DNA of 64,000 bases from Schoenoplectus triqueter (lineage: Eukaryota; Streptophyta; Magnoliopsida; Poales; Cyperaceae): NCBI GenBank assembly GCA_964058805.1, contig CAXKVV010000062.1, forward strand, positions 62,001 to 126,000, in the 5' to 3' direction. The first letter of the stretch is position 1, and each line of letters begins with the position of its first letter. Of this stretch, positions 19,401 to 39,360 are shown piece by piece. The notes below the pieces were generated by a model. That model made no database searches, was not told the origin of the DNA, and worked only from the letters and a program-made list of their open reading frames with translations. Made by a program: the position numbers and the translations under genes.

Positions 19401-20740
19401 TAATTATATATTTTTTTCACCATTATAAAGATCATACTAACAATTTCAATAATTTAACATTTTTTACCATTCTGACAATTAAATACTTTGAACAATATAT
19501 AAAAGAGCCATAACAAATATACATGATTTTAAGATCAATTCAGCATAAACAAATTATCATATATAATATATATGGTAAAACATTCACATATATACTTCAT
19601 CCAACATAAATAATCTTTTGAGGACTAAAATGCTTTAAATCCCATATGTCGATGACAGTAAGCTTCCTCTCCCAAACTTGAAGAGCACTATATTATGAGT
19701 GAGGATCCTTCAAATACTTCTAAAAGCTATGCATTCATAAGAACTCAACATATATCGGTCCATACAGTCCTGTTTTCATTGAAAAAAATAATTATGTAAG
19801 CTAATACATAATTAGGTTGTCATGCACTCTAAGAAGTCAATATGTGCAATGCAATTTAGAAAAATGCACACTCACTTTTATTGGGCAACATTCACATGCA
19901 ATGTATGATTTAGTTGAATAATGCAAAAATCACAAACTTTTAACCTAATAAATTTGTCAAAACTATAAGAATTCTACACTCAAAATTTCATATCAAAAAT
20001 TAGACAACAAATCAAATACCGATTAAAAATAATAAATATGCACATACATATAGAAAATCACGTCCTTTGGGGTATTTTGCTCTCTTTTGTTTGGGCAGCG
20101 GGCGAACAGAGAAAATAGGGTTTTAAGGGCGTGAATTGAACTCAACTCACGCCCTTTGTTAGGCCGTTTGTGAAAATAAATTTGCTCTTAGACCGTCTCT
20201 GTAGTTAAGATTTATTTTTGGTCCGTTTAAGTAAAAAAAACACTAAATGGGACAACAACTTTTTTTTTAAAAATCTTCTCGTTGAGAAATAAATGGAGAC
20301 AGCAGTTAACTATAGTTTATAGCAACTATTTATAAAGTTTATTCTAGTTAACAAAAAGTGATTACACATTTTCATACTGAAATTTGTCCAGTATACATTT
20401 TATCATTAATGAATACATTTTATTAGTAATGTTCTATATCAACTCTAAAAAGTGAACATCAAGAAAAACAATAATAAATAAAATTAAAAAATATCATACA
20501 TATTTGACAACATTTATTTTGATTAAAAATACAATGAGAAAATGAAGAATTTATATTAAATTTTCATATCTTATTTGCTAATATGAAGAATTAATATTAC
20601 AACTACAACAAGAAAAACAACTAAAATATGTAATAGAACAAAAAATATCAAGTAGAAATTACACAACAATTAAGAAGAAATACAATAATGCTATTTATTG
20701 AAATATCTCTACAATGAACATTATATTACTGTAAAGAAAA
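19401..20740. other. AT-rich sequence with one short hairpin
   Basis: No gene seen. A 10-bp perfect stem, AAGGGCGTGA and TCACGCCCTT with a 12-base loop, lies at 20125-20156. The rest has no repeat structure I can define. Confidence 0.4.
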
Positions 20741-21490
20741 TAAAATTAATTAGCTTTTTCTTTTCCTTTAAGAAGCTTCATTTGCATGTACTTCTTGAAA
20801 GCTTCCATAAATTTGTCTACAAGATGTTTGTATCGTGAATTGCGCGGTCCGCCCCTCCCCCTTAATTTAAGAGGAGGTTTTAAGTCAATCCCAACAGGTG
20901 TACAATTAATCAAATCTCAAACTAATATTTTTTATGCACCTTTCCTTCTAATTAATACATTTGGATGATGGTCAAAGTAGCAACATTAGAACCTATAAGT
21001 GCATCATCAACAACATTATAAGCACCATTTACTTCTACAAATTCACTTCGATCAATAACACCATTTGAATCCCGAACTTCATTTAAACATTGACCTTGAA
21101 GTATATTTTCAGTTTGATCTTCAACTTCATTTACACCTCTCCCTCTACCTCTACCTCTACCCCTTTCTGCACCAGCAACATTTGCAACACTTCTTCCTCT
21201 TCCAACTCCTCTCCCACTTCCTCTACCCCTACCATTTCCTGCATCTAGACAATAAAATAATATGAATTACAGAATTATATCAGTGTATTTCAGGTTAAGG
21301 TCTGTGTTAGGTTAGGGTTTGCACCAGTTTATATTAAAGCATTATAACAATGTAAATTATAGAATTTTATAAATATATATTAAGGGTTATAAAATATTAC
21401 CAGCAACTTCAATAACTGAGTTCTTATAATCACCATTTGCACCATTTTCTCCTCTTGTCTTAACCCTCCCTCTACTAGAAACTTGATTAA
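20741..21490 (-). pseudogene. Glycine/arginine-rich transposase-like coding fragment (3' part)
   Basis: The minus strand reads, from 21490 down, SVNQVSSRGRVKTRGENGAN, then after a likely intron a GRGRGSGRGVGRGR and RGRGRGRGRGVNEVEDQTEN stretch, DSNGVIDRSEFVEVNGAYN, and near 20780-20900 PPLKLRGRGGPRNSRYKHLV ending KGKEKAN and a stop. The composition and a PRNSRYK motif suggest the C-terminal part of a FAR1/MULE-type or related transposon protein, but I do not recognise it firmly. The 5' part continues at 34935-35197 beyond a retrotransposon insertion. It may belong to the CACTA-like remnant at 19087. Confidence 0.35.
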
Positions 21491-21495
21491 CTGAC
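21491..21495. repeat. Target-site duplication CTGAC, left copy
   Basis: CTGAC directly precedes TGTTCACCCC, the start of the 5' LTR, and recurs at 34935-34939 right after the LTR end CGCACA. Confidence 0.85.
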
Positions 21496-24400
21496 TGTTC
21501 ACCCCTGAAAGGTCGGAGGAAGAAATACAAGAGAAAAAGCCAATATCAAACCCTATGAGCTGAACTAATACAATCCCTGTGCAACAAGGAATGATGTCAA
21601 TTCAAGCCAGTATTTTGATACAACCAATCATAAGAAATCTCAATGTGATCTTGCTTTCAAGGCTAACCTGGTGCCAAAGCTGTGAGCAACCACCTAACCA
21701 TGCTTTAATTTGTGTCAATTGCTGATAAGTAGTCAGCTCTTTGACCAAATTACCCTCATGTTAAGGGATTGAAAGTCAATTTCACAAGACTGATCAGGTG
21801 CCAAAGCTGAGAGCAACCATCTGATCAAGTCAAGATTTGTATCAATTGTTGACAAGTAATCAACTTTTGATCAAATCAAACCCTAATAAACATCAGTGAT
21901 GGTGTTAATTGGGGTGGAGTTTCTGCAAGGAGAATTTATTTGGCAGGGACACTGAGCTACTATTGATAAAATTGGGATTTATTCAGAAGAAAGTAGGGTA
22001 TTGTGATCAGAGAATTTTTAACACAAGCAAACAGGGGTAAAAATGGAATTAAAATTACAGGGATGATCATCATGAATTTAGGGATTTTTTGTGAAAATTT
22101 CATGATTTTTGGATGAAGGGATCTATTAAAATCAATTGGAGAAAGAAAATTAGATCAGTCCAAAGGCTGAGATTCAATCAAGAGCTTTAAGGGTGCAACT
22201 TGGAGCAAAGGATCTAATTGGGTGCAAATTGGGGACAAAAGACACAAAAATACCTAAATGGCGCTGGAAAGAAGTTTTTTTGAAGAAAGGAAGATTTATG
22301 TAAACTTGGCGCACTGTAAGTGTTTCTCATTAAACCCGACATGTGGGGTCAGTTCATGTGCGCCGAGTTTACCCGAAATGTGGCTGCTCCCCACTCCTTA
22401 TTTCTCCTCTTACACACGGGCCCCACCTGTCAGGGGGCTCTCTCCCTTCCTCTTGATTCGGTTTACAAACACCAGGTCCATTCGGACAAAGGGACAAATT
22501 CAATCTCCTTCCCCGATTTTCCTCTCTTTTGCCCGATTCTTCTCTGATACTGAAGGTGAAAATGGAGCTCAAGAAAATTCTATAGGAAGGCCCCTCATTA
22601 TACACCAATCAAGAGCTTGCAAGGAGGAGAATATAGTGAAGTCATTATTTTGCCGAATGGTGCTTCATAATGCACTCGCATCCAAGGTGAAGGGAGCTCG
22701 GCCAAAATTCAATTGAGGCAATTTAAAGCTTAATCACTCGAATTAATGGCTCATGAAGTATCTCTGAACCTCCACGACACTGCCTAGACCTTTAAACCTA
22801 AGCCTCAACATCTCTAGACCCGAGATTCACCAACTTGCCAACCGGCCATGAAGTGAAATGTCCAAAGTCAGTGTCAGATTGTGCAGATGGCCAGACAGGT
22901 GAATTGAACTTATCCCTGGGGCTAGTGTGATGCTAATAATGCTTGCAATTGGGAGAATGTATCAAGAGATAAGAGAAATTGATCCAAAGTTTTAAATCGG
23001 GTTTTAGATGGAAATAAGGGTCTAGGGCGCCTAATTGGATCTTCCTATTACCCAAACCTATTAAGAAGGATATTGAGGTGATGTTTAGATACCTAGAAGT
23101 TTCTAGAAGAGTCCAGAAAGAGCAAATGCTATGGATGGTAATTAAGTGGCAAAAGTGTAAAACCTGCTAAAGTTATAACAAACTCACAACTGCCAATCTT
23201 AGTTGCTGGAGGTTAGTAATTGTATCAAGGTGGCTCAGTAGACCACAGGGAACACCAGGAAAATGATTAAACTGGAAATCAAAACACCAAGTGCAGATGG
23301 GATAAAAGGAGGTGAAGTTGACAGAAAACAGAAGAAAACATCAATTGCCAAGTTGGCAATCCAAACTTCAAGCACTCCCCTCAACAAACACAGTTGAAAT
23401 CAATCCTAACCACTCAATTGCTGCATCAAGGGATGAGATGAAGCCACCTCAGTGATCCGTGGCAGAGAAGAAGCACAAATCATGCCAAAAGAAGCACAAT
23501 TCAATAATTGCACTTGACTGAGCCCTATAAAAGTCCTGGACAGCCAGTAGAAAAAAAAAGAGATCAATTTTAGAGGAAGCACACTTTCCTTGAGAGCAAA
23601 AGAGCTAGAGATACGATAAGAATTACCAGTACAGTGAGATAGAGATCTGCTGTAATTGAGAGCAGGCAAGTTTGACATTATCAGAGAAGTTATACATTTG
23701 CTAATTGGAAAGTATACAATTGCATTACAAAGAAGGTTTGTTGTTATGCGTTAAAGACCGGTAGGATAATAATTCTTCCATTTCTTTTTCTCTTGCCATC
23801 TGAGCTTAAAACTCTTTTCTCTTCCTTCCTTTCTTGCTGATTTGATGTTTGATGATCCTGTTCAGCGAGCCACTGGCCCAAACAAATAGTTTGGCGAGCC
23901 TTTAGGCCTGAGCCAATCACATCATCAATGAATTGACATTTTTTTAGATTAAACACTAAACAAGTCTCTCTTCCTTTCAATTTAACTGAGCCTGATTTCT
24001 ATTACAAGATTGAACAATAACTACTACTGTGAATCATGAATTTTGAATTAGCATTTTGATCTTTCAATTTTCTTCACTGATTTCATCAGTTCTTTTCTTG
24101 AATTGTGCTGACTGAGAATTAAATGAGTATTAATGGATAAAGTCTTTAAGCACATCTTGTGAGCCATTGGCCCAGGTAAAACCTGGTGAGCCTCTAGGCC
24201 GAGATAGATGCAAGTGAAAGAAAGGGAGAACAGATAGATCACCTATCATCTGTTGAGAATTATCACTAGTTGTAGCAAGAACTCTAAAATTCTGGTAAAA
24301 AGACAGTGAATTGGCGAGATTAAGAAGCAAGTACATCACTACAAGGCAGGAATATAACATTAACGTGAGATCAATTCATCAATACAGCGACAGAGATGCG

Positions 24401-25593
24401 ATTGGTACCAAATCGGTACTGAGGTGAAGACCGGTACAGGCAACGCCATGTCTTCACCGCATGGATCTTTAATCAAGTATCATCAAGGGATTGGAAACAC
24501 CAAGACGACGCCAACCCCATTGTCTGATCTGCCATCGGCATCTCCGATCACCGGCGACACCCTTTTGCGCAGATCTCAAAGCGCGATGAAGAAAAGAGTC
24601 GAAGAGATCATCTGGCGCGACTGTTAAAATGAAAGCACCAATCTTGGCGCGCTTGCACCAATCCTGAAGTAATTCAACGACGTTAGAGTGATGAAAAGCT
24701 TAGATAACAAATAGAATACATCACACGCATTCATCTATTTCAGCACAAATCTTGAGAATATCCAATGGATGCAAGAAAAGGGAAAAGGGGCTGTGCTGTC
24801 AGCCCAGAGATAAAAAACGACGAAATGGGCTAAGTTTACTTAAAATCAAATGAACCCAAAAATCTAGCCTAACAGCGAAATAAAATAATAAAAATAAGTT
24901 TGGGCCCAAATTGCAGAATAAAGAACTCAGCCCAACAGTGAAAGGAAGAAAATGAAATGGGCTCAGTCAGTAAAAATAAAAAAAAAAAAAATCTCAGCCC
25001 AATTCAACTAAGCCCAACTCAGTAAATAACAGAAAATTAAAAATAAAGGGGTAAATAAATCATTTGGAAATGTTCCCAAACTCCAAATTGACTCAAATTT
25101 GTTTCTAAATTTTTTTTGTTTTTCATACTATTTTTCTATATAAAAACATTTCAATTTTAAGAATTTTACAGTACTGAAACAATTTAAAAGCAAAATGACA
25201 TTGTTTGCTTTTCCCTATTTGACCAAGCTTTGACTTGCTATTTTGGCTATTATAAAAATCCTAAAAATTCAAATAAAATCATAAATAATAGCCAAATTAT
25301 TTCCTATTATTTTTGTAAGTAATTTTCTACAAAAATAAATAGAGTTTAGAAATAGTAAAAATAAAATTCTATTACTTTAGCTATTATAAAAATCCCAAAA
25401 ATCTAAATAAAATTCTATATAATAGCTAATCCATTTTCCTATTATTTTTGTAAGTAATCTTCTACAGAAATAAATAGAGTTTAAAAAAATAAAAAATAAA
25501 TTCACCTTTGTAATAGAGATAATAATGAAAGGTATTATCTTAATAATAAAAATCAATAAAAAATGTGATAATCTTTTTACATTTTAGAGGTGA

Positions 25594-26049
25594 ATAGATA
25601 TGCTCACACGAGGGGTGTAGAGCAACACAATAATTTTACACAAGTAATGCAACGTATTAGAACAATTAGTCGAGACAAGAACATCTTGACGCTCGTTGAA
25701 GAATAACAAGGCTACGACATCAACATGAAGAGATATGTCGACTTTGAGGAAGAAGAACATTACGATGTCTGAGAGAAGTGACATCTTAATGACTCGGTGT
25801 CATGAACAAGTAATTCATGACTAAATACGCTCACACAAGGGGTGTAGAGCAACATAGTGATTTTGCACAAGTAATGCAACATATTAGAATAATTAGTCGG
25901 GACAAGAACATCTTGACGCTCGTTGAAGAATAATCAAGGTTACGACATCAACATGAAGAGATATGTCGATTCTAAGAGAGAAGAACATTACGATGTCCAA
26001 GAGGAGTGACATCTTAATGACTTGGTGTCATGAACAAGTAATTCATGAC
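25594..26049 (+). repeat. Two 228-bp tandem units in the LTR
   Basis: The units end at 25821 and 26049. Each contains CAAGAACATCTTG, GATGTC(9 nt)TGACATC and GTCATGAA-CAAGTAA-TTCATGAC, i.e. several self-complementary cassettes. The copies differ at scattered positions but keep these stems. Confidence 0.85.
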
Positions 26050-26123
26050 CACTTGAGCTAGTAAGGCTGAACTCATCCGTCGATAAGTTTGTCTTCTGGT
26101 TCATTTCCCAAGATTGTGAGATT

Positions 26124-26760
26124 GAATCGTTCTGTAGTAGATTCATCCACAAAATAGTGAATGTGAACCGTTCTGTAGTAGGTTCCTTCACTAACACACG
26201 CTTCAATGTCAAGCTGGTTTAGTGCTTCAGGTTTGACGTTGTGTGCAGTTGTGTTCCTAGGTTTATGAATCGGTTTAGTGCTTCGAATTCATGATCTAGA
26301 AGATCGGTGAGAAGAAACACGTGGACCAAACCCACCCTTCTCCTGATTCACCAACCTCAAGATCAACCGGCCTAGTGCTTCGAGTTGTATTTTGTGTGAT
26401 TGGTTGTTGACTAGTTAAGATCGAACCGTTCTGTAGTAGGTTTATCTTCTAGATCAACCGAGTTTGAGTCGTTCTGTAGTAGACTCACCTCAAACTCCTC
26501 TGAAGAGATTAATCTGATCTGTAGTAAGGTTATCTCTCGAGGCGGTAAAAGACTGAACCGATCTGTAGTAGGTTCGTCTTTCATGGGATTAACTTCTGAA
26601 TCATTCTGAAACAGGTTTATTTTCTGAAACAACTGAGGTTGAGTCGTTCTATAAGTAGACTCACCTCGAACCCCTTCGAAGAGTTTAATCTGATCTGTAG
26701 TAAGGTTATCTCTCAAGGCGGTAAAGACTGAACCGATCTGTAGTAGGTTCGTCTTTTACG
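26124..26760 (+). repeat. Array of short hairpins with a conserved loop and variable stems
   Basis: Ten cassettes consist of a 5-bp arm, an 11-12 base spacer (usually GTTCTGTAGTA or GATCTGTAGTA) and the complementary arm. Arms: GAATC/GATTC (26124), GAACC/GGTTC (26165), GAACC/GGTTT (26423), GAGTC/GACTC (26466), AATCT/AGGTT (26511), GAACC/GGTTC (26555), GAATC/GGTTT (26598), GAGTC/GACTC (26641), AATCT/AGGTT (26687), GAACC/GGTTC (26730). Several have outer stems too, such as GAGTTTGAG/CTCAAACTC. Interleaved is a second type with loop CGGTTTAGTGCTTCGA and arms ATGAAT/ATTCAT (26265), CAAC/GTTG (26364) and GTCAA/TTGAC (26208). Part of the array is also a tandem repeat of about 178 bp. Confidence 0.85.
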
Positions 26761-27076
26761 GGATCAACCTTTCGGTGAATCCAGACGACCACTTGACCAT
26801 CATTTAACTATACTATTTGCTTCTCCCTTTTAAAGATCCAGAGGTGCCTCGAGGTTAACAGCCCAGGGTAATTAACGGTGGGGGCTTGCGCCCACCGGAA
26901 TCTACAAGAACTCACAATCACTAAAAAAACCCCTGAATGTGCATCCAAATCGTTCTAAACGGCAGAATCGGCCGGCATTAAACAGATGCACGCTTGGGAG
27001 GGATCTCCGTGTCCTTCTTCCGCATCCCATCGCCCAGCGGCGGTGCGGAGCGCGCGAAAAAGGGTCGCACAGGATC

Positions 27077-27094
27077 TGGCACGCCCGGTGGGAC
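27077..27094 (+). other. Primer-binding site of the Tat-type element
   Basis: TGGCACGCCCGGTGGGAC starts five bases after the LTR end CA. This string is a common minus-strand primer site in plant Ty3 elements of the Tat branch. Confidence 0.8.
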
Positions 27095-27152
27095 CTAGAT
27101 TCTCCTCTTATCTTTGAAAGAGAGAAGCAAATAGAATAGTTAAAAGATACAA

Positions 27153-29948
27153 GTGGTCTTCTATGCGCTAAAAATGACTAATGATTTTCGAGTATTTTCG
27201 TTTTTGCAGGAAATGGCATACTTTGGGAACTTCAACCTCGCTCCTTACACCGTCACCCCTGCACAGAGCCCAGAGGGCAAACTATTCATGTTCTTCGGGA
27301 CTATCCCGCAAGAACTCACCTTCTACGGCCCAGCTCCAGTGGCCACAATCACTCCCGCAACCGTCCGGATCTCCATCCCGGACGAGGAAGAGGACTCAAT
27401 TACCCTAACTCCTAAGGGTATTTCTAACAATGTCATGGCCTCTCCTACTACCTCCCCAAAGAGGAGAAGGCGACCGTCTAAGAAGACAGCCCCAACGGCC
27501 GCGACCCAAGCTATCCGCAGCTCTCAAGCGTCCAGGAAGAGGGCCCTGGATGCATACCAAAACCAGCTGGTGGCTAGGCCAGCCATCCCAGTCTCTAACA
27601 AGTTCACGGCACTTCATATAGTGGCTAAAAACTCAGCCACCGGCCAGCTCCGCCAGGCATGGGAGGTGCCTAAGCCCACACCTCGCCCAACTCAAAGGCC
27701 TCAACACCGCCAGCACAAGTCTCAAGCCCCTGCAGAAGCCATCTGCAAGGCTCACAAGGCCCTCAAACAGAGAAGAAGCGTCAAGAACGCTAGGTCGAGA
27801 CAATACGTCTCCCACCCCAGTCAATCTCAAGATATGGCTCAGCCGCAAGCCATCATCCCGACTCTGCACCCAAGGAGGTTTACATCAAAGGCAACACCTA
27901 GCGTCCAGCAGGTGTGGGTCCCAAAGGGTTCCCAACCAACAAAATCCCAATCTCAAACCCAGCCCAGCAAGGCAGGCAACTCGAACACTCCGTCCGAGAG
28001 TGTATTCAGCCGCTTAGGTCAGAAGAGTGTATTCAGCCGATTAGGCTCGAGAGTACCACTCAACAACCTAAAAATAACTGCCCCTGACCAAACGAAGAAG
28101 AAGAGAAGAACCGCTCGCTATGAAGAGCACTTCTCGGTCAACACCATCAGTATAAGCTACGATACTGATCCAGACACCGATACTGAGGTGAATATGGCCC
28201 AGGACGACCAGTCCCCGCCTAATCAAGCTCACGTCACCAATACCAACAAAAATAATGGTAGAAAAGGGAGACCTCCCAAGAGAGTCAACAGCAGGGAAGG
28301 GGAAGATCACAATGAAAACCCTGATTTCTTCGATAATGAAGATGACGTTGAAACACGTCCCGAAGTGCCCGTCGATGAAATTGAAATATTAAAAGGCCAC
28401 ATCGAGGCACGGGATGAAGAGCTGATTAGGCAACGGGAGCTAATCGCTACCATGTTGAAACAAAATGAAGAATTGATTAAGGCGGTCAAATCCTTGCAAG
28501 AATCACAGGACGCCAATTTCAAAGCTGGTAGCTCCCGTCAAGAAGGGGTCCACAGTACCAAAAGCAATCATAAGGGAAAACAACCCGTCAATTCTAAACC
28601 CCATCCACATAGAACAATAGAAGTGGAGGCTGAACCAACGGGAATATCCCGGAAAGAGATTCAAGCCATGATTGCCCAGCAAATGCAAATAGCTGGAGGT
28701 GGATACGCTATCCCTCCCGTTAAAAACTGTGGACATCCATACCCTGCGATATACGATTTAGAAGAATATCCTAAAGGGTATGTGATCCCCCGCTTCAGGA
28801 CCTTCTCCGGAGAGGGCAATAAAGATCTGAACCCTGAACAACACCTGGCCTACTTTGTGGCCTCGTGCGGTAACACGGGCGGCAATGATGCACTATTGTT
28901 GAGACAATTCCCTCAAAGCTTGGTGGGAACTGCTTTCCAATGGTACTATTCATTAGAAAACAACAGCATCAGGACCTGGGATGAGATGGCAGACTCGTTC
29001 AGGGCACGGTTTGTTATGGTGTCTGACAAGATAAACATAGCCGATCCGGCAAGCACTAAACCCAATAAAGGGGAGTCAATGACAGATTTTATTAATAGAT
29101 GGCGGAACCTCAGCATCAAATGCGACCGCACATTAACTGAAGATGAGGCCGTCAACCTAATCATGAAAAACATTGACGGGTGGATGGGCATGCTGCTTGG
29201 TGTGACAAAGGTCAACACGTTTAAAGACTTGCTCAGGTCGGTATCCAATATGGAGAGGATGTCACCGCACACTGTGCCAAACTTCATGAACAACAGGCCG
29301 CAACGAGGAGCCCGAGCTGAAACCAAGGTGGCATTTACCTCGTTAAAAGATAAAATGGTTGCTAACACGGATACTCAAAGTGGCAACAACGGCACAAATG
29401 GCAACAATTACAATAAGGGACCTAGGCCCAATACAGCAGGGAGTTCACGGAGTTTTGAGTCCCTCAAACAAAAGAAATCTAAGCCGTACTCCTTCAGAAA
29501 AGATAAAGTTGCCCAAATCTTCAGAGGGGCACTAAAGAACGGTCTAGCCCTACCGGCCAGTAAACGCCCAGAAGATGCCGATAAATCGGACGAACCCAAC
29601 TTCTGCCCATACCACAGAGTACTAGGGCATCCAATTGAAGATTGCTGGGTCTTCAAAGATTGGGTCGAAAAGGCGTACAAGAATGGTGAAATTACTTTAC
29701 CTAAAGGGTTCTTGCAAAGCCCATCGGCCCATGAACATGCCAATATGATCTCTCACGAAGAAGAGAAGATCCCGGGGCAATTAAGTGAAGACCAGGAAGA
29801 ACAATGGACTACGCACTTATCGAAAAAGTCGATTAAAATGCTTAAAGCCCTTAAGAAAGAACCCGGCATGAGATGGAAAGACGACATCACGCCAGTGGTC
29901 CCACCAAAACCTAGGGTATACTATAAAGTGGACCAGAGCCAGGACTAG
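27153..29948 (+). CDS. gag: Tat-type gag polyprotein, 931 residues
   Basis: The first half is basic, Pro/Gln/Ser-rich and probably unstructured, with a small internal repeat (SVFSRLGQK-SVFSRLGSR at about residue 285). A coiled-coil-like acidic stretch lies at 410-460. The retrotransposon gag domain covers about residues 549-705 (RFRTFSGEGNKDLNPEQHLAY, FPQSLVGTAFQWYYSLE, MTDFINRWRNLSIKC). A CHHC zinc-knuckle-like motif, CPYHRVLGHPIEDCW, is at about residue 817. The frame ends at TAG 29946-29948, but the same frame stays open beyond it to the next start, so gag and the following ORF were probably one polyprotein, or are joined by readthrough. I took the upstream ATG at 27153; the one at 27174 is also possible. 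Confidence 0.85.
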   Translation: MVFYALKMTNDFRVFSFLQEMAYFGNFNLAPYTVTPAQSPEGKLFMFFGTIPQELTFYGPAPVATITPATVRISIPDEEEDSITLTPKGISNNVMASPTTSPKRRRRPSKKTAPTAATQAIRSSQASRKRALDAYQNQLVARPAIPVSNKFTALHIVAKNSATGQLRQAWEVPKPTPRPTQRPQHRQHKSQAPAEAICKAHKALKQRRSVKNARSRQYVSHPSQSQDMAQPQAIIPTLHPRRFTSKATPSVQQVWVPKGSQPTKSQSQTQPSKAGNSNTPSESVFSRLGQKSVFSRLGSRVPLNNLKITAPDQTKKKRRTARYEEHFSVNTISISYDTDPDTDTEVNMAQDDQSPPNQAHVTNTNKNNGRKGRPPKRVNSREGEDHNENPDFFDNEDDVETRPEVPVDEIEILKGHIEARDEELIRQRELIATMLKQNEELIKAVKSLQESQDANFKAGSSRQEGVHSTKSNHKGKQPVNSKPHPHRTIEVEAEPTGISRKEIQAMIAQQMQIAGGGYAIPPVKNCGHPYPAIYDLEEYPKGYVIPRFRTFSGEGNKDLNPEQHLAYFVASCGNTGGNDALLLRQFPQSLVGTAFQWYYSLENNSIRTWDEMADSFRARFVMVSDKINIADPASTKPNKGESMTDFINRWRNLSIKCDRTLTEDEAVNLIMKNIDGWMGMLLGVTKVNTFKDLLRSVSNMERMSPHTVPNFMNNRPQRGARAETKVAFTSLKDKMVANTDTQSGNNGTNGNNYNKGPRPNTAGSSRSFESLKQKKSKPYSFRKDKVAQIFRGALKNGLALPASKRPEDADKSDEPNFCPYHRVLGHPIEDCWVFKDWVEKAYKNGEITLPKGFLQSPSAHEHANMISHEEEKIPGQLSEDQEEQWTTHLSKKSIKMLKALKKEPGMRWKDDITPVVPPKPRVYYKVDQSQD

Positions 29949-30029
29949 GTTCTTAAGAAAAGAAAGAAGCATAGAAACAACAAGTCCAGAAAGAATAAAA
30001 TTGAAGAATGCGAGCAGGGCAGTCCCGAG

Positions 30030-32636
30030 ATGATTACCCTTCAACACTTCATCTCCAAAGAGGACTGGGAGAAGTTAACCCTAGGTCAAAGGAAAGAAGA
30101 TGTAGATGAAGAAGTGAATAAAGAAGAAAGCGAAGAGATCTGGGGTGCTTCGTGCAACATGGTATATTCTTCCCACGACGAAGATATGCCAACATTAGAG
30201 GAGATGTTCTTCCTAAACGACGAAGGGGAGGCAAGCACCTCTGGGACCAAAAATGAAGAATGCAAGGCTGTGCTCCGGTCCGGGACTTATGTACCCGAGA
30301 GACAAGCTCCCAAGGATTCCGATAAGGGAAAAGACAAAATCCAGAATAAAGGCAAAGAGGCCGAGAGCCTAAGCAAGAACCCAGAAAAGACCCGGCCGAC
30401 GAGCGAAGAATATAATGTGTTGGCACATCTGCGTAAGATTCCAGCGCTATTAAGCATATTCGACGCATTGATGATGTCACAAGACCTAAGGGAGGTACTA
30501 ATCCAAGCCTTGCAAGATCCTGAGAGGTACAAGTCATACTTCATCGAGCAAAATATGCAGGAAGCTCTATTCACCGCCAAGCGGGCCGCATGCATAAATT
30601 TCACAGATGACGACCTCCTGATAGGCACCGTCGACCACAACCGCCCGTTGTACATCACCGGAAACTGCGGTGGGCAAAAGATTGGCCGCATCCTGGTCGA
30701 TGCAGGGTCCTCGATCAATATCATGCCGCTTAAAACCCTGAAGACTATCACCTTAGATGTGAAGAACTTATCTGATGAAAAGGTGATTATTCATGGCTTC
30801 AATCAAAACTCCCAAAAGGCCCTGGGAGCTATAACTCTGAACCTGCAATGCGGAAGCCTAAAAGCGCCTACCAAGTTCTATGTCATTGACGCTGAAACTT
30901 CTTATCGAGCATTGTTGGGCCGCTCGTGGCTTCACAGCAATCAGGTCATACCCTCTACTCTGCACCAGTGCCTGAAATATATTGAGAATGGTAAACAAAA
31001 GAGAATTGACGGAGACGTCAAACCATTCGGGGTGCATGAGATTAAATTCAATGACACCCAATATTTTCTGCCTAAATCCGCTACGGCGTCAAGCCGACCA
31101 ATAATAAAAGCAGGTCAGAAACCTTTCAATAAAAGCCCTAAATTTGATACCTCGTCCGGAGAAGAAGAAGAGGTCAAATTTAATATTAAACCCCGAGGCG
31201 TTCGAACTCAAAGACCCGGAAGAAAGTCGGGTGAGGAAGCAACCTTCCGTTTCAAACAGGTGGCTACATATAAAGCCCAAACAAAGTCGAGTGAAATCAA
31301 TTCGAGTGATTCTGAGGAGGAGATCATTTTCAACTTTAAACCCGCCAATATCTCTCAAATTCAGATCACAGAGGCAACTTCAGGAGAAGATTCTGAAGAT
31401 TCCAACGACTCGGGCGACATCACCTCGGGAGAAGAATCTGGCCATGGTCGTCAACCCTGGGAAGAAGAATCTGACGAAGAGATCATCTATCATATCCTCA
31501 AGAAGCCATATAAAGGGCCTGAAACAGATAATGAAAGTGAGGAGTCATTTATGATCAACTTGGGATCCGGTAGCGGAAGGGATAACCCAGTTAAGCCAAA
31601 GCCTGTAAGCGAAGAACGCTCGTGGCGGGAGAATTTTGAAGCTCGCGTCTGGAACGTAATCGATGAAATGAGACACCAGATTGAAAATAACAGGAGGGAA
31701 GTATCTGAGCAATGGGAAGTGATGCAGGATATTAAAGTGCAACACAATGAAATTATGATAATGATTGAAAACCTGCAAACCGCAATCTATAATTCCGAGC
31801 TACTCAAAGAAATGACGAGCGAACCCCGCGCCGAGACCCCTGAAAGACAAACACCCGATAGCGGCAAACGGGTAATTGTTATAGTGGATGAATCAAGGGG
31901 GGAAGAAACGAAAGTCAAACAATCGGCCGTCATGCAAACCCTCAAAGCCAAGAAGAGTAAACCATACTCTTTCCTAAAAAATAAAACAGCTCGGATATTT
32001 GAGCAGGCCCTAAAGAGCGGATTGACACTTCCCGCTTGTAAAAGACCCGCGGACATAGAGAGGGCTAGCGAAGGTGAATTTTGCCCTTATCATCGCATAC
32101 TGGGTCACACAATTGAAGAATGCTGGGTATTCAAGGATCTTATAGAAGAAGAGCACAAAAACGGAACAATTCAACTCCCGAAAAGCTTTCAACAAGACCC
32201 AGCTCCGCATAGCTCGAATAACAAAGGCAAAGGGGTTGCCTATACGATCTCGCACACTCCCGTACCTAGCAAACCCAAAGTTGCGAGACGAAAGCCAATC
32301 AAAGAAATCTACCGCTCCAACTCAGTCATGAATATTGAAATAGAAGAGGAGATGGCGGCGCTAGAGATCACTGCGGTTCCCGAAAGGCATTTTAAAGACC
32401 TCATGCCAAAGGAAGTAAACCACATCCAGACTCTCAAGACCTTTGTTGTGCCGACAAAGGTAGAGCGCATCAAAGGGAGAACTATCATCCATAAGGCTAT
32501 AATTTTCTATCAGAGCGACTCAACTCAGTCTCTGAAGAACCCTGATCACAACACTTGGAAGAAGTGGGTGATAGAACAAGAGTCAGAGAATGCAACGAGC
32601 AGTGACGCTGCATCTCATCCCTTTGGAAAGGAGTAG
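30030..32636 (+). CDS. pol: Protease-containing ORF with a second CHHC module
   Basis: In the same frame as gag, 868 codons. The retropepsin-like active site lies at about residue 224 in GRILVDAGSSINIMP, followed by YRALLGRSWLHS. A long acidic, Ser/Glu-rich linker (about residues 370-530) separates it from a second copy of the gag-type module, KKSKPYSFLKNKTARIF then CPYHRILGHTIEECW (about residue 685). The end shows KDLMPKEVNHIQTLK and related sequence. It stops at TAG 32634-32636, after which the frame remains open (YKLAKRAKCLRDISKAE). Neither the linker nor the second zinc module is part of the usual Ty3 protease region. Confidence 0.8.
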   Translation: MITLQHFISKEDWEKLTLGQRKEDVDEEVNKEESEEIWGASCNMVYSSHDEDMPTLEEMFFLNDEGEASTSGTKNEECKAVLRSGTYVPERQAPKDSDKGKDKIQNKGKEAESLSKNPEKTRPTSEEYNVLAHLRKIPALLSIFDALMMSQDLREVLIQALQDPERYKSYFIEQNMQEALFTAKRAACINFTDDDLLIGTVDHNRPLYITGNCGGQKIGRILVDAGSSINIMPLKTLKTITLDVKNLSDEKVIIHGFNQNSQKALGAITLNLQCGSLKAPTKFYVIDAETSYRALLGRSWLHSNQVIPSTLHQCLKYIENGKQKRIDGDVKPFGVHEIKFNDTQYFLPKSATASSRPIIKAGQKPFNKSPKFDTSSGEEEEVKFNIKPRGVRTQRPGRKSGEEATFRFKQVATYKAQTKSSEINSSDSEEEIIFNFKPANISQIQITEATSGEDSEDSNDSGDITSGEESGHGRQPWEEESDEEIIYHILKKPYKGPETDNESEESFMINLGSGSGRDNPVKPKPVSEERSWRENFEARVWNVIDEMRHQIENNRREVSEQWEVMQDIKVQHNEIMIMIENLQTAIYNSELLKEMTSEPRAETPERQTPDSGKRVIVIVDESRGEETKVKQSAVMQTLKAKKSKPYSFLKNKTARIFEQALKSGLTLPACKRPADIERASEGEFCPYHRILGHTIEECWVFKDLIEEEHKNGTIQLPKSFQQDPAPHSSNNKGKGVAYTISHTPVPSKPKVARRKPIKEIYRSNSVMNIEIEEEMAALEITAVPERHFKDLMPKEVNHIQTLKTFVVPTKVERIKGRTIIHKAIIFYQSDSTQSLKNPDHNTWKKWVIEQESENATSSDAASHPFGKE

Positions 32637-33257
32637 TATAAACTAGCAAAAAGGGCAAAGTGTTTAAGAGATATATCCAAGGCCGAGGCCAAGCGCTTCG
32701 ATGAACTCTGGAACGGCGGCCAGAATAAAGTTATGGGCCTGGATGGTAAAATAAAATACACCCGAGGGTTAGGGTATAACTGCGATGACGCAGTATGCTT
32801 TGAGGGGTCCCTCAACGAGCGCCGAACGGAAGAAAGCTGTTGTATGACTTCTGTTGAAGTTTTAGACAATGAAACAGAAGAGGACAATACCCCAGTCCTG
32901 AAAAATGCTTTGAAACAGCTAGAAAAGGAACCTAATACGGTCGATGAGTTAGCTGAAATCAATCTGGGGACGGAAGAAGACCCATGACCAACTTTCATAA
33001 GCACATCATTACCAGAAGAGGTGGCTGACAGGTTGAAGACATTCCTTAAAAGCTACATGGACTGTTTCGCTTGGAGTTATAAAGAAATGTCTGGATTAGA
33101 TCCCAACGTAGCAGTTCATTACTTAAAGATTGATCCCACTTTCAAGCCAATCAAGCAAGCACCGAGGCAGATGAGAATAGAACTCGAAGAAAAGGTCGTA
33201 GAGGAAACAAAGAAACTCATTGACGCAGGCTTCATACGGGAAGAAGAGACGCCATAA
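32637..33257 (+). pseudogene. pol: Linker between protease and reverse transcriptase
   Basis: The same frame continues: GLDGKIKYTRGLGYNCDD, an acidic stretch, then TPTFISTSLPEEVADRLKTF and YMDCFAWSYKEMSGLDPNV, the conserved lead into Ty3 RT (VHYLKIDPTFKPIKQAPRQM). It is interrupted by TGA at 32985-32987, where the family usually has an Arg in DPRPTF, and ends at TAA 33255-33257. No indel is needed to follow the frame. Confidence 0.75.
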
Positions 33258-33260
33258 TGG

Positions 33261-33845
33261 ATGGCTAGCATTGTCCCGGTTAAAAAGAAAAATGGGCAGA
33301 TTCGCTTTTGTGTAGATTTTCGGGACTTAAACAAGGCGTGCCCCAAAGATGATTTTCCGCTCCCAGTAACCGAAATCATAATTGATCACACATCATCTTA
33401 TGAAGTCTTCTCCTTCATGGACGGTTACGCGGGTTATAATCAAATTAAAATGGCGCCAGAAGATGAAAGGCACACAGCATTCCGCACGCCAATTGGCATT
33501 TATTGTTACAAAGTCATGCCGTTTGGGCTCAAAAATGCGGGTGCCACTTACCAACGGGCGATGACAAAAATATTTGACGATCTGATCCACAAGATAGTGG
33601 AGTGCTATGTGGACGACCTAGTCATCAAAGCCATGTCATATGAAGAACACCTCCAATATCTTGAGGTCGTCTTTAACCGCCTAAGAGAACATGCGCTCAA
33701 ATTAAACCCGTTGAAATGCGCATTCATGGTATCATCAGGTAAATTTCTAGGGTTTGTGGTGCGCCACAGGGGAATCGAAATAGACCCGGGTAAGATCAAA
33801 GCAATAACTGAACTATCCCCGCCAAAGAATTTAAAACAATTATGA
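33261..33845 (+). CDS. pol: Reverse transcriptase domain
   Basis: Ty3-type RT fingers and palm: SIVPVKKKNGQIRFCVDFRD, LNKACPKDDFPLP, FMDGYAGYNQIKMAPED, MPFGLKNAGATYQRAM, and the catalytic YVDD at about residue 116. It is bounded by in-frame stops TAA 33255 and TGA 33843. The second falls in KQL-SLQGQLAYIRRF, where the family has Arg (CGA), so it is a C-to-T nonsense change. The polymerase motif itself looks intact, but a full polyprotein cannot be made without suppressing stops. Confidence 0.9.
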   Translation: MASIVPVKKKNGQIRFCVDFRDLNKACPKDDFPLPVTEIIIDHTSSYEVFSFMDGYAGYNQIKMAPEDERHTAFRTPIGIYCYKVMPFGLKNAGATYQRAMTKIFDDLIHKIVECYVDDLVIKAMSYEEHLQYLEVVFNRLREHALKLNPLKCAFMVSSGKFLGFVVRHRGIEIDPGKIKAITELSPPKNLKQL

Positions 33846-33860
33846 TCCTTACAAGGACAG

Positions 33861-34597
33861 TTGGCGTATATCAGGCGGTTTATAGCCAACCTATCGGGTA
33901 AAATCCAACCCTTCACCCGGTTGACTAAGAAGAATATCCCGTTTAAGTGGGATGGCGAGTGCCAGCGAGCCTTTGAAGAAATCAAAGCTTACCTACTCAA
34001 CCCTCCAGTATTGGCAGCGCCCATACCCGGGAAGGAACTCATTCTATATACGACCGCCCTAGATGGATCCTTGGGAGCCTTATTGGCACAAGAAAACCAG
34101 GATGGTAACCAAAATGCGCTATATTACTTAAGCCGCATGATGGTGGGAGCAGAACACGGGTATTCGCCGATTGAAAAGCATTGTTTAGCCCTAATCTTCG
34201 CGGTAAAGAAATTAAGGCACTACATGCTAGCCCATAAAATCATCTTAATATCCAAGGTAGATCCTCTCAAATACCTGATGACTCGGCCAATGCTGACGGG
34301 TAGGCTGGCCAAGTGGGCGATCATTCTTACTGAGTTTGATATCACCTATACACCGCAAAAGGCAATTAAGGGGCAGGCGCTGGCAGATTTCTTGGCTGCA
34401 CACCCGATTCAAGACGACTCTCCATTAAAATGTGACTTTCCCGATGAGGAAACTTTACATATTGAAGAAGGAAATCCTATATGGGAGTTGTACTTCGATG
34501 GCGCTTCGTCAATCAAACCGATCACAGGCCCGGGAGTTCCAACTGTGCGAGCTGGCGCAGGACTAGTCTTCGTGACCCCGGAAGGCGGAATCCAGAC
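33861..34597 (+). CDS. pol: RNase H domain plus truncated second RNase H-like domain
   Basis: In the RT frame. The first RNase H covers LYTTALDGSLGALLAQEN, YYLSRMMVGAEHGYSPIEKH, CLALIFAVKKLRHYM and WAIILTEFDITYTPQKAIKG-QALADFLAAHP. A second, archaeal-type RNase H starts at about 34480 (WELYFDGASS, GAGLVFVTPEGG), as in the Tat branch. It is cut at about 34588-34598, where sequence jumps into the 3' LTR. The frame by chance runs to 34670, but those last residues are LTR. Integrase is absent. Confidence 0.88.
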
Positions 34598-34934
34598 GAT
34601 CTGTAGTAGGTTCGTCTTTTACGGGATCAACCTTTCGGTGAATCCAGACGACCACTTGACCATCATTTAACTATACTATTTGCTTCTCCCTTTTAAAGAT
34701 CCAGAGGTGCCTCGAGGTTAACAGCCCAGGGTAATTAACGGTGGGGGCTTGCGCCCACCGGAATCTACAAGAACTCACAATCACTAAAAAAAACCCTGAA
34801 TGTGCATCCAAATCGTTCTAAACGGCAGAATCGGCCGGCATTAAACAGATGCACGCTTGGGAGGGATCTCCGTGTCCTTCTTCCGCATCCCATCGCCCAG
34901 CGGCGGTGCGGAGCGCGCGAAAAAGGGTCGCACA
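34598..34934 (+). repeat. 3' LTR remnant (last 337 bp)
   Basis: Identical in length to 26735-27071 with one difference by eye: 8 A and 3 C at about 34786-34796 where the 5' copy has 7 A and 4 C. Ends CGCACA, followed by CTGAC. Confidence 0.92.
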
Positions 34935-35197
34935 CTGACATTTCAGAATTAACAATAGCTTGAGAAGAACAATGATCACCAACACCATTACATTAATTAC
35001 AACATTATATAAACAAAAGTGTTCTAAGAAATATGAATTGATTATAAAAAACATAAATATGTTACCATAAAACTTATTTCTAATAGCAACAAATCCATTA
35101 TATACTTCATCAGCAATTTCTTCATTAAAATAACCATAATCATGTATTTCTTCAATCATTCCATTACATTTCCTGTACAAAAGGTTATACCTGCAAC
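34935..35197 (-). pseudogene. Glycine/arginine-rich transposase-like fragment (5' part)
   Basis: Continuation of the fragment at 20741-21490. Removing the retrotransposon and one CTGAC rejoins the minus-strand frame as QAIVNSEMS then VNQVSSRGR. An upstream exon reads YNLLYRKCNGMIEEIHDYGY and NEEIADEVYNGFVAIRN after a TTGCAG acceptor, somewhat like the helical segment of FAR1-type proteins. The splice site between the two parts is not clear. Function not established. Confidence 0.35.
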
Positions 35198-35286
35198 ACT
35201 AAAAAATAAAAACAAAATAAATCATATGATATTAATATTGAAGAAGAAGGTACTTATATAAAAAATAAATATAGTTACTTTGTATC

Positions 35287-35748
35287 TGTTGAAAGATAAA
35301 CTTAATTTTAGTATTAAAGTTAAATAAATTAGGAAATAAAGGGAGACTCTTTGGCTTCAGCACTTTGGCAGAATTTTAAGGCTGATTAATGACAGCATTT
35401 GAATAGGCAAATGGACGTAGAATTTAGCGTATAACCTATGGATGGAAAGATTTTGAAGTCTCGTTTCTAATGGTGTAATTTATAAGTCATTTGGAGTTCG
35501 CTACAGAGAGTTATGACGATTTTAGTGAAAGGGTGTCAGCTGAAAGGGTGCTGTTTAGAATTCTGTTTTTATTATATATTTTTATTACGAATTTCAAGAG
35601 TCTTTTCAGATATTTATGCTATATAAAGAGTTGTATTCTGTTGTTTTGTAAGCAAGAAAGTGATAAGAGTCAATAGAAAGTATTTGCTTATTTTTATCCA
35701 CCTTTCTCTTATCTTTTCTCATTTATCTACCAACCTCTAATTCTATCA
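35287..35748 (+). repeat. Copia 5' LTR, about 462 bp
   Basis: It starts TGTTGAAAGATAAACTT and ends TTCTATCA four bases before the primer site. The left limit is set by the typical TGTTGAAA start, not by comparison with a second LTR. Confidence 0.65.
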
Positions 35749-35751
35749 AAT

Positions 35752-35767
35752 TGGTATCAGAGCAAGG
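35752..35767 (+). other. Copia primer-binding site (initiator Met tRNA)
   Basis: TGGTATCAGAGCAAGG is the standard plant copia primer site, complementary to the 3' end of initiator methionine tRNA. Confidence 0.92.
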
Positions 35768-35772
35768 TTCAA

Positions 35773-36715
35773 ATGACCACAAAAACCTCAAATATTTCCT
35801 TCCAATATCCAGTTCTAACCAAAACCAATTATGATAAATGGTCGCTGTGAATGAAGGCTATCATTGACGCTCATGGCTTGTGAGACATTGTCGAGAAGGG
35901 ATACGAAACCTCCCAAGACGAGACCGTTCTTACGGTGGCTCAAATAGCGGCGCTGCAAAAGAAGAGAAAAGACGATCAACGCACTCTAAGTATCATTCAT
36001 CAAGGTGTAGATGACGACATGTTTGAGAAGATTGCCAATGAGACGCGAACAAAAGATGCATGGGAAATTCTAAGAAATTCGGTGGTTGGAGCTGAAAAAG
36101 TGAAGAAGGCTTCAAACTTTAAGAGCCGAGTTTGAGTCGATTGTGATGAAGGAGAGTGAGTCGATAGGAGACTACTTCACGCGAGTATTGGCGGTGGTCA
36201 ATCAAATGAAGAGGCTTGGTGAAAAGATAGAAGATGTGAGAGTAGTAGAGAAGATTTTGTGATCTCTCAATCCGAAATTCAACCATATTGTGGTGGCAAT
36301 TGAAGAATCGAAGGACCTTGAATCCATGACGGTTGATGAGTTGAATGGATCTTTGTTAGCACATGAGGAAAGAATAAAGAGAAGCCAACAAGAGACGGTG
36401 GATCAAGCATTGAAAGCAAGGTTTTCTTTTAATCCAAAGGGAAACGACAAAGGAGACCGAGGTCAAGGACGAGGAAGAGGCTGATGTCGAGGCCGTGGGT
36501 GCGGCCAAGGACGTGGAGAAGGTCATGGACAAGGTAAAAATGATGAAAGAAGTAATAACAAGAACAACAATACACGCGGTAGAGGACGTGGTCATGGAAG
36601 AGGCGGCCGATCAAATTGGTACAATGTTGATTGTTATAATTGTGATAAATATGATCATTATGCAAGTGAATGTTATTCCGAGAAGAAGACGAAAGAGAAT
36701 GCTAATTTTGTAGTC
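35773..36715 (+). pseudogene. gag: Copia gag pseudogene with CCHC zinc knuckle
   Basis: It begins MTTKTSNISFQYPVLTKTNY followed by WSL-stop-MKAIIDAHGL-stop-DIVEKG, the copia gag N-terminus with two TGA stops. Then DDQRTLSIIHQGVDDDMF, TKDAWEILRN, an apparent frame change near 36110-36130, LRVVEKIL-like sequence and [18 protein letters not shown] Gly/Arg/Asp linker precedes the CCHC knuckle C-YN-C-DKYD-H-YASE-C at about 36640-36680. The damage means no functional gag. Confidence 0.8.
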
Positions 36716-36739
36716 AAGGAGGAAGTCGAGAATAATGAT

Positions 36740-37990
36740 GTGGTGTTATTGGCTAACAAGGAGAATGATCCCGAGAAGGAGAATGTTTGGTACCTCGACA
36801 CGGGTGCAAGCAACCACAAGTGCGGCTACAAATATAAGTTCATCGAATTGAAGGAAGAAGCAAATGGTCATGTTTCTTTTGGTGATGCCTCCAAAGTGCG
36901 TGTAGAAGGTGAAGGTAACATTTTGATTAAGTTGAAAGATTGGATACAAAAGTTTATTTCAAGTGTTTATTATGTCCCAAAAATGAAGAGTAACATTTTG
37001 AGTTTGGGACAATTATTGGAATGTGGTTACACGGTGTTTATGAAAGACCGATCTCTTCATTTGCGAGATAATAGTAATCAGTTAATATTCCAAGTTGAGA
37101 TGGCCAATAATAGAATGTTTAAATTGAATTTGATGAATATTGAGACAACATGTTTAAAGGCTTGTGTAGAAGACAGAAATTGGTTGTGGCATTTAAGATT
37201 TGGTCACAAGAATTTTGGAGGACTAAAAGAAATGGCTAATAAGAAGATGGTACGGGAATTACCATCAATTGATTCTCATGATAAGTTTTGTGAAGGGTGT
37301 GTGATTGGCAAGCACTCAAAAAATAGTTTTCCAAAGATGACAGAATGTCGAGCAAGGAAACCTCTCGAGTTGGTGCATACCGACATTTGTGGACCGATCA
37401 AGCCGAACTTAATTAGTGAAAACCGGTATTTCATAACCTTTATTGATGATTTTTCTCATAAAACTTGGGTTTATTTCTTGAAAAAAAAATCAGAGGCTTT
37501 TGCAATTTTTAAAAAATTTAAAGTTTTTATTGAGAAGCAATGTGGTTTTTATATCAAGGTTTTGAGATCGGATCGAGGCGGTGAATTTATTTCGGCCGCA
37601 TTTAACTCTTTTTGTGAAGAACATGATATTCGGCGTCACTTGACGGCGCCATACTCGCCACAACAAAATGGAGTCGCGGAGCGCAAGAATCGGATCATTC
37701 TCGACATGGTTCGAAGTATGCTTAAGAGTAAGAATATGCCAAAAGAGTTTTGGGCGGAAGCGGTAGATTGTGCCGTTTATTTGTTAAATTGGTGCAAGAC
37801 ATCAAGCTTCGAGAACTTAACACCACAAGAGGCATGGAGTGGTTTTAATCCTTCGGTATCACATTTGAAAGTATTCGGTAGCGTAGCATATGCGCACATA
37901 TCGGACTAAAAGCGTGTGAAATTGGATGATAAAAGTTTAAAGTTGATCTTTATTGGGTATGATGAGAGGTCTAAACCATATAAATTTTTT
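36740..37990 (+). pseudogene. pol: Copia protease and integrase
   Basis: The aspartic protease motif NVWYLDTGASNH is at about 36787. The GAG-pre-integrase motif LWHLRFGHKNFGGLKEM and HSKNSFPK follow. The integrase core has the catalytic acids in LELVHTDICGP, KVLRSDRGGEF and SPQQNGVAERKN. The frame stops at TAA 37907-37909 (family CAA, Gln, in PDQKRVKL) but continues in frame to about 37990, where it shifts. The 389-codon part itself is clean. Confidence 0.88.
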
Positions 37991-38001
37991 GATCCCACAA
38001 G

Positions 38002-39057
38002 ATGCATATTAGTCGTGATGTACAGGTGAACGAAGAAGCGATGTGGGATTGGAGCAAAATGATGGAGATTTGTCATGAGAAGACAAGAGATGAGATACAC
38101 ACACCGATTAGCATTCCATGCAACAATGATGAATATGTGCCACCAATTACATCACATGAAACATCTTCATCAGATGATGAGACGAGAACCCCCAAAATAA
38201 GGAGCATCCATGACTTGTACGAGGCTACAAGTGAGTTACATATGGTGTGTCTCTTGGCTCAAGACGATAACATCTCCTTTGAAGGGGTGATTAAAGATGA
38301 CAAATGATGAGCCGCCATGGATGATGAGATACATGCAATCGAGAAGAACGACACTTGGAAGCTCACCTCTCTTCCTAGAGGTCATAAGACAATCAGTGTC
38401 AAATGGGTGTATAAGAAGAAGATGAACCCTCAAGGTGAAGTTGAGAAGTACAAAGCAAGATTAGTGACGAAAGGTTACAAGCAACAAGTCGGTGTCGACT
38501 ATGAGGAGGTTTTTGCACCGGTGGCTCGAATGGAGACCATTCGACTTTTAATTGCTCTCGCGGCTCAATCAAAATGGCGTATTTATCAAATGGATGTGAA
38601 GTCGGCATTTCTTAATGGTGTGTTGGAAGAAGAAATATACATTGAGCAGCCTCTCGGGTATTTGAAAGAAGGCGATGAAGGTAAAGTTTTGAAATTAAAG
38701 AAGGCTTTGTATGGTTTGAAGCAAGCTCCTAGAGCGTGGAATACCTGGATTGATCAATACTTTAAATCACACAGTTTTGTGCAATGCCCTTATGAACATG
38801 CGTTATATGTGAAGATTGAAAATTGAGATAAGTTGATTGTATCTTTGTATGTTGATGACTTAATTTTTATGGGTAGTAGCGGTGCAATGATTGATGAGTT
38901 CAAAAGGGCCATGAAGAAAGAGTTTGAAATGACCGATTTGGGACTTATGTCCTATTTTCTTGGTCTTGAGATAAAGCAAGGAGATGAAGGAATTTTTGTT
39001 TCTCAAGAGGGTTATGCAAAAGCAATTTTGAAAAGATTCTAGATGGAGGATTGCAAG
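38002..39057 (+). pseudogene. pol: Copia reverse transcriptase, truncated
   Basis: After the frameshift come HISRDVQVNEEAMWDW and the linker, then the RT: VKWVYKKKMNPQGEVEKYKA, RLVTKGYKQQVGVDYEEVFA, PVARMETIRLLIALAAQ, MDVKSAFLNGVLEEEIYIEQ and KKALYGLKQAPRAWN, with YVDD near 38850. In-frame stops are at 38305-38307, 38824-38826 and 39040-39042. Sequence ends at MEDCK, where the CACTA terminus starts, so RNase H is missing. Confidence 0.88.
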
Positions 39058-39080
39058 CACTACCAGAAAAATTGGATTTA

Positions 39081-39360
39081 GAAACGCCTATTTAGAACCG
39101 ATTTTTAAAAAACAGGTGTTAAAAGGTGAGAGTGGCATATTTATATATTTTATTAAAATTATTAGAACCGGTTTTGTTTAACAACCGGTTATAAGTTTTT
39201 TTTATTAAAACCGGTTTTATAATAACCGGTTCTATTTCATTTTATTAAAATTGGTTTGTTTACAACTGGTTCTAAAATATTTGTTTTAGAACCGGTTTTA
39301 TTAAAACCGGTTCTATAATTTTTAAAAACAAATTATTCCCATTTTAAAAAACCGGTTCTA
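39081..39360 (+). repeat. 5' subterminal repeats of the CACTA element
   Basis: At least eight copies of AACCGGTT-centred motifs (e.g. TTTAGAACCGGTTTTATTAA) in both orientations. In CACTA elements such arrays bind the TNPA-type protein. Confidence 0.75.

Follow-up and report, generated by a model that had tools for sequence, protein, structure and literature searches.

A repeated-loop hairpin array in the 5′ LTR of a Ty3/gypsy retrotransposon of Schoenoplectus triqueter, a putative cis-acting RNA element

Host element and anatomy of the array

The window analysed here, a stretch of 64,000 nt of Schoenoplectus triqueter DNA, contains an LTR retrotransposon bounded by a CTGAC target duplication, located left of 21496 and after 34934. 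Many LTR copies stop at the identical base, and 5′ LTRs then continue with GGATC and a primer-binding site. The parts of the element in the window are as follows.

21496..27071, + strand: 5′ LTR of a Ty3/gypsy element, 5576 bp, TGTTCACCCC...GTCGCACA, delimited by the target duplication and copy ends
27077..27094, + strand: primer-binding site, TGGCACGCCCGGTGGGAC
27153..29948, + strand: gag ORF, 931 aa, Retrotrans_gag
30030..32636, + strand: ORF with a retroviral-type aspartyl protease, under the curated cut-off
33261..34670, + strand: reverse transcriptase (RVT_1) and RNase H ORFs
34597..34934, + strand: 3′ LTR remnant, matching 26734-27071 at 99.7%

The 5′ LTR that carries the array belongs to an element classed as Ty3/gypsy on the basis of its LTR ends, the CTGAC duplication, the primer-binding site, Retrotrans_gag, RVT_1 and RNase H, the integrase part being absent from the window copy. 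In this copy RNase H is followed at once by the final 338 bp of the 3′ LTR, and the intervening stretch, integrase included, is missing. In a protein search the closest named sequences to gag come from Dioscorea alata, at 43 and 41% identity; JGI metagenome proteins match gag at 82-92% over 25-57% of the query. A CCHC zinc knuckle (CX2CX3-5HX3-5C) was looked for in all three + frames of the window copy across 27072-34700 and not found.

Several features of the surroundings were also noted. Twelve bases at 34588-34599, before and into the 3′ LTR remnant (GAATCCAGACGA), recur at 26777-26788 of the LTR, a site 43 bases away from the matching junction point, either by chance or as a trace of the deletion's origin. 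The sequence left of the element (21399-21495) starts like the right flank of another LTR copy, in L003 (C60:544805-548485), which then continues into the right flank of the window and represents a related locus without the window's insertion. A further copy, L047, has a duplication of its own, CCTAC, and resembles a solo LTR. Elsewhere in the window a CACTA-like transposon (Transposase_21 ORF at 40316-41116; DUF4218/DUF4216 at 41857-43260) is flanked at 39159-39324 and 43846-44071 by inverted and tandem repeats centred on AACCGGTT, possibly subterminal repeats.

Reading and folding of 26114-26756 identified fourteen possible hairpins: ten of type 1 (c7 being degenerate), three bearing a type-2 apex, plus one long hairpin of neither kind.

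26114..26152, + strand: c1, type 1, inner stem GAATC/GATTC, loop GTTCTGTAGTA
26155..26193, + strand: c2, type 1, inner GAACC/GGTTC, outer TAGTGAA/TTCACTA
26199..26245, + strand: t2a, type-2 apex (GGTTTAGTGCTT)
26257..26299, + strand: t2b, type-2 apex
26302..26348, + strand: long hairpin without either shared loop, with double paired changes in sister families
26350..26404, + strand: t2c, type-2 apex, 19-21 of 21 pairs unchanged in each of eight sister loci
26408..26456, + strand: c3, type 1, inner GAACC/GGTTT, outer AAGAT/ATCTT and TGACTAG/CTAGATCA
26460..26497, + strand: c4, type 1, inner GAGTC/GACTC
26505..26536, + strand: c5, type 1, inner AATCT/AGGTT, outer GAGAT/ATCTC
26549..26580, + strand: c6, type 1, inner GAACC/GGTTC, outer AAGAC/GTCTT
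26598..26618, + strand: c7, degenerate cassette, GAATC ATTCTGAAACA GGTTT
26636..26666, + strand: c8, type 1, 12-nt loop GTTCTATAAGTA, inner GAGTC/GACTC with the inner arm from 26641
26681..26712, + strand: c9, the copy of c5 in a 175-bp duplication; RNAfold on c9 alone favours a different fold
26723..26756, + strand: c10, the copy of c6 in the 175-bp duplication

Type-1 hairpins share one plan, consisting of a variable outer stem, usually a 1-nt 5′ pyrimidine bulge, a 5-bp inner stem and the loop GNUCUGU(1-2 nt)GUA, typically GWTCTGTAGTA in the window. The original prediction of ten cassettes with a fixed spacer held for their location and for eight exact loops, G(T/A)TCTGTAGTA (cores at 26131, 26172, 26430, 26473, 26518, 26562, 26694 and 26737), but one cassette, c8, has a 12-nt loop and another, c7, is degenerate. 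The arms it quoted as varying while staying complementary are correct, AATCT/AGGTT and GAACC/GGTTT each hold one G-U pair as it had proposed for imperfect cases, and the outer stems it mentioned are present and longer than claimed, usually with a 1-nt bulge between inner and outer stem. Its second cassette type is real, but the exact "16-base loop" occurs only at 26271-26286, the two others being off by a few bases; in most cases folded, a 3-bp stem with a 5-nt loop closes inside it. Stems are 10-21 bp long, with bulges, adjacent type-1 cores are spaced 41-46 bp apart, and c8-c10 sit in the 175-bp duplication, which is recent.

Counting G-U as a standard pair, the nine clear window cassettes have 45 of 45 inner pairs (mean under permutation 35.9; 0.00015 of permutations did as well) and 40 of 45 outer pairs (mean 35.2; 0.005). 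The six cassettes outside the 175-bp duplicate gave 30/30 inner pairs (permuted mean 24.8, 0.0087) and 26/30 outer pairs (permuted mean 22.8, 0.026). The folding energy of the array (z -4.5, + strand) does not stand out within the element: two parts of gag gave -4.2 and -3.3, and a part of the LTR further upstream gave -5.0. The signal lies in register and covariation rather than in global stability. A search with the whole Rfam library (E≤1) over 24500-27200 gave one lncRNA-family match below the gathering score and no hammerhead or other ribozyme, and ARAGORN identified no tRNA in 20000-40000. The low ATG count of the array (5, expected 12.4) was discarded as uninformative, since CAT is also low (4).

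Covariation and constraint among copies

The genome searched (an 82-Mb assembly of 2086 contigs) contains 1,250 sites with the 11-nt loop (568 + 682), compared with 48 (7 + 41) in reversed controls, and 2,908 sites with the 12-nt variant, compared with 40 in the reversed control. A pattern covering t2b and t2c occurs at 300 sites and at none in the control; on several contigs, t2b sites lie 17-22 kb apart on one strand and were read as LTR pairs, and other spacings also occur. A purine-before-loop pattern was rejected as background only (26 sites, 25 in the control) and exposed another dispersed repeat (G000 C276, C329, C582, C662 and others), in which GTTCTGTAGTAAT stands between ATATT and AATAT arms; its loop has letters in common with the array, by chance or descent.

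Pairing was assessed in 165 distinct 35-mers, taken from the first 100 of the 568 and the first 100 of the 682 sites plus the loci, after removal of four background sequences. Inner arms paired at 805 of 825 positions and outer arms at 705 of 990, compared with maxima of 687 and 630, respectively, in 1000 permutations that did not keep relatedness. Uncompensated cassettes also occur in the genome (e.g. GAACC/AGTTC, GAACT/TGTTC, GAACC/GATTC), and one-step intermediates are common. The left-bulged register was the single best of three in 127 of the 165 cassettes, and the unpaired base 5′ of the inner stem was T in 135, C in 24 and A in 6. A set of 34 distinct cassettes with the 12-nt loop gave a similar picture, with 165/170 inner positions paired and a permuted maximum of 153.

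For covariation, 104 of 183 candidates with at most two loop mismatches were added, giving 269 cassettes. Covariation was observed in this set, in which the top five of 496 column pairs are all predicted stem pairs (inner 3, inner 1, inner 2, outer 5 and outer 1, in that order). Under a tree-based null (60 replicates) their E values were 0, 0.12, 0.88, 2.0 and 5.05, so that at E 0.05 inner 3 is the one significant pair.

Ten window hairpins (c7-c10 excluded) were then compared with eight of eleven sister loci (L060, L061 and L065 left out; L056, L059, L066 and L067 trimmed beforehand). The 1054 cells of this comparison comprised 827 unchanged, 82 one-sided paired, 91 one-sided unpaired, 36 double paired and 18 double unpaired; because the sister loci are mutually related, these cells are not independent events. 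Double changes from one Watson-Crick pair to another numbered 31 in register, compared with 4, 14, 9, 3, 1 and 1 in controls slid by -3, -2, -1, 1, 2 and 3. Compensation across copies, which the original prediction had made its test, is borne out by the Watson-Crick double changes. Some copies do have uncompensated changes, the 91 one-sided unpaired cells, as decaying copies would. The compensatory change above controls that marks a conserved structured RNA was thus found, the tree-based null giving one pair with E <0.05. Strand was assessed from the balance of G-U and A-C, since a structured RNA would favour G-U on the transcribed strand. Distinct one-sided changes outside CpG were 23 G-U and 18 A-C in the sister comparison, which establishes no strand preference, and on the cassette tree inner stems gave an excess of G-U (36 against 19.6), a contrast confounded by CpG at the loop border.

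For sequence constraint, 43 matches came from a search in which 40 of 665 first-pass candidates were scored, so the copies studied are the closest ones. Forty-two distinct copies were aligned. Repeats of others were set aside (the window's own L001, L004, and every locus from L040 onward apart from L043), as were one exact duplicate and any match with <330 aligned bases; seven of ten further stretches (L053, L054 and L056 left out) brought the alignment to 49 rows. Mean pairwise difference was 0.054 in loops, 0.050 in inner stems, 0.089 in outer stems and 0.119 in the rest of the array. Loops and inner stems together are constrained, at 0.052 compared with 0.097 at base- and CpG-matched sites (0/5000 draws as low). 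One-sided changes in the inner stems of close copies were G-U in 21 cells and A-C in 16, a similarity that is the pattern of decaying copies. Hairpin number differs between copies: in L050 (C42:133390-134330) the 175-bp module occurs in triplicate, and 14 type-1 cassettes were listed for the enlarged array. A further family (L059, L060, L065) has runs of short hairpins (e.g. TGAACT-loop-AGTTCA) some 40-110 bases apart. With the ranking of predicted pairs, the excess of Watson-Crick double changes over slid controls and the constraint on loops and inner stems, the analysis of copies agrees with the earlier suggestion of selection on structure, and the hairpin structure is very probably under selection.

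Loop change between families and position in the transcript

The loop itself changes between two families at the six positions compared. In L069-L073 the 12-nt loop occupies all six scored positions, and the window has the 11-nt loop at c1-c6 (c8 having 12 nt); L049 and L052 carry 12-nt loops at c2 and c6 only, and loop lengths are mixed in L056 and L059. Between the window and L069, inner stems at the six orthologous positions differ by 0.17 of 10 bases and loops by 2.83 of 12, whereas inside a single element the differences are 0.53 (window) or 1.47 (L069) for loops and 3.8 for stems. When three elements were compared at six positions, the loop difference was 1.24 within an element and 2.33 between elements at the same position; the corresponding values for stems are 3.93 and 0.44. 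The loop contrast is absent between the window and L063 (0.67 between at the same position; 0.53 within the window and 1.73 within L063). Single pairs also vary, the outermost pair of c2 being T-A in the window and C-G in L062 and L063. Judged by these sequence differences, the loop in the 12-nt family behaves as a trait of the element and the stem as a trait of position. Since an element's own 12-nt loops vary among themselves, simple conversion would be a poor account of this pattern and a common ligand a better one. Most 12-nt loops read UCUGUU, in which the core UCUG-UR is not kept.

The LTR has just two TATATAA boxes, at 25137 and 25416, and lacks AATAAA beyond 25555, which would place the array in a long 5′ leader. 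The least variable 60-base block of 25050-27071, however, adjoins the downstream end of the array and has a TATA-like stretch at 26806 (TATATAG in L064).

26790..26849, + strand: block with mean pairwise difference 0.016, the lowest of 34 blocks

This block is a possible core promoter, and if it is used the array would fall near the 3′ end of the genomic RNA. From LTR biology, the full-length RNA would include the array under either promoter placement.

Possible roles and known systems

We propose that the array would be a cis-acting RNA element on the retrotransposon's own genomic transcript, in which selection would keep the stems paired so that the same loop, GNUCUGU(1-2 nt)GUA, is displayed many times and the second loop type three times. 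Each repeated loop would dock one and the same trans-acting partner, for which the element's own Gag is the likeliest candidate, and the array would mark the full-length transcript to be packaged or dimerised in virus-like particles. That the array acts as RNA is probable, and one common ligand for the loops is reasonably likely; Gag as that ligand, or packaging as the outcome, is possible and is suggested more tentatively, and the reading as a whole falls a little short of an even chance. Gag docking was placed first because a self-encoded ligand would best explain the loop change; the zinc knuckle not found in the + frames of the window copy and the absence of UCUG-UR from most 12-nt loops count against Gag. 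In a more speculative and rather unlikely extension, the array would be a multivalent RNA "address code", in which about ten hairpins show one loop to the element's own Gag and families switched code position by position, from the 11-nt to the 12-nt loop, often with G second, each packaging its own RNA and not that of relatives.

The main rival is a host protein, for which the same RNA array would serve export, stability or cap-independent translation instead of packaging. All support for an RNA array counts equally here, and use of TATATAA at 25137 or 25416 would make the array part of a long 5′ leader, a usual place for translation elements; a loop change between families of one genome would, however, be easier if each family encodes its ligand, a host protein being common to all, and we regard a host ligand as unlikely, though a serious alternative. 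The 41-46 bp between adjacent cores and the highly conserved block with its TATA-like stretch directly after the array, together with a strand-neutral substitution pattern, would also suit a DNA-level element, with the loop as a transcription-factor site about four helical turns apart upstream of a promoter and the arms forming cruciforms or framing the site. A reader of double-stranded DNA gives no reason for complementary variable arms with a one-sided bulge, and cruciforms with 11-nt loops and bulges would extrude poorly; this reading is improbable.

The original prediction had offered a copying process as an alternative to selection, and template switching, to which reverse transcription is prone, or quasi-palindrome correction could restore arms in a genome where modules do duplicate (the 175-bp repeat, and its three copies in L050). 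Correction would, however, erase the bulge, which is mostly kept, and copying does not account for the reduced diversity at loops and inner stems or for loops that changed while their stems did not. One-step intermediates, besides, are common; this half of the earlier proposal is disfavoured and, in our judgement, very improbable. As repeated imperfect hairpins can be Dicer substrates, the array might instead be a small-RNA precursor for host silencing, but bulged stems of 10-21 bp are mostly short for Dicer, the loops are as constrained as the inner stems and an element is not expected to select for being silenced, leaving this the faintest of prospects. The cis-acting RNA reading lends itself to a ready test: several thousand loop sites, with natural variants and intermediates in one genome, allow one short loop RNA to be tried against one protein, and the array would give a view of structure-ligand coevolution within a single genome.

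Cis-acting RNA structures in LTR elements are already known, retrozyme hammerheads sit in LTRs and Ogre LTRs are long. No repeated-loop hairpin array of this kind was found described in searches of the open-licence PMC literature on LTR hairpins and repeats, packaging, lineage and motif. The array resembles retrozymes, which carry hammerhead ribozymes (PMC4918200), in being structured RNA within plant LTRs, and differs from them in the lack of a hammerhead or other ribozyme match in 24500-27200. As passages of PMC6317226 describe, plant LTR elements reach about 24 kb, and the Ogre/Tat lineage is very large and has an archaeal-type RNase H between RNase H and integrase. The present element shares with Ogre/Tat a 5-bp target duplication and large non-coding regions (PMC6317226), and it may share the very large size, as judged from the 5576-bp LTR and from t2b pairs 17-22 kb apart among other spacings; in the main text of that paper the word hairpin occurs 0 times. 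The BARE retrotransposon of barley has conserved dimerisation and packaging signals and, like the array as proposed, represents cis-acting RNA signals in a plant LTR retrotransposon, but it is Ty1/copia rather than Ty3/gypsy and the passages on BARE include no repeated-loop array (PMC3735527). In the murine leukaemia virus packaging signal, paired elements flank two UCUG-UR-UCUG nucleocapsid sites (PMC3236853). The array has about ten copies instead of two motifs and belongs to a plant LTR retrotransposon in which most 12-nt loops lack the UR and the + frames of the window copy showed no CCHC zinc knuckle. Like the viral signal, it would show a short single-stranded motif by means of paired flanks in more than one copy per RNA, and its 11-nt loop contains UCUG-UR (PMC3236853).
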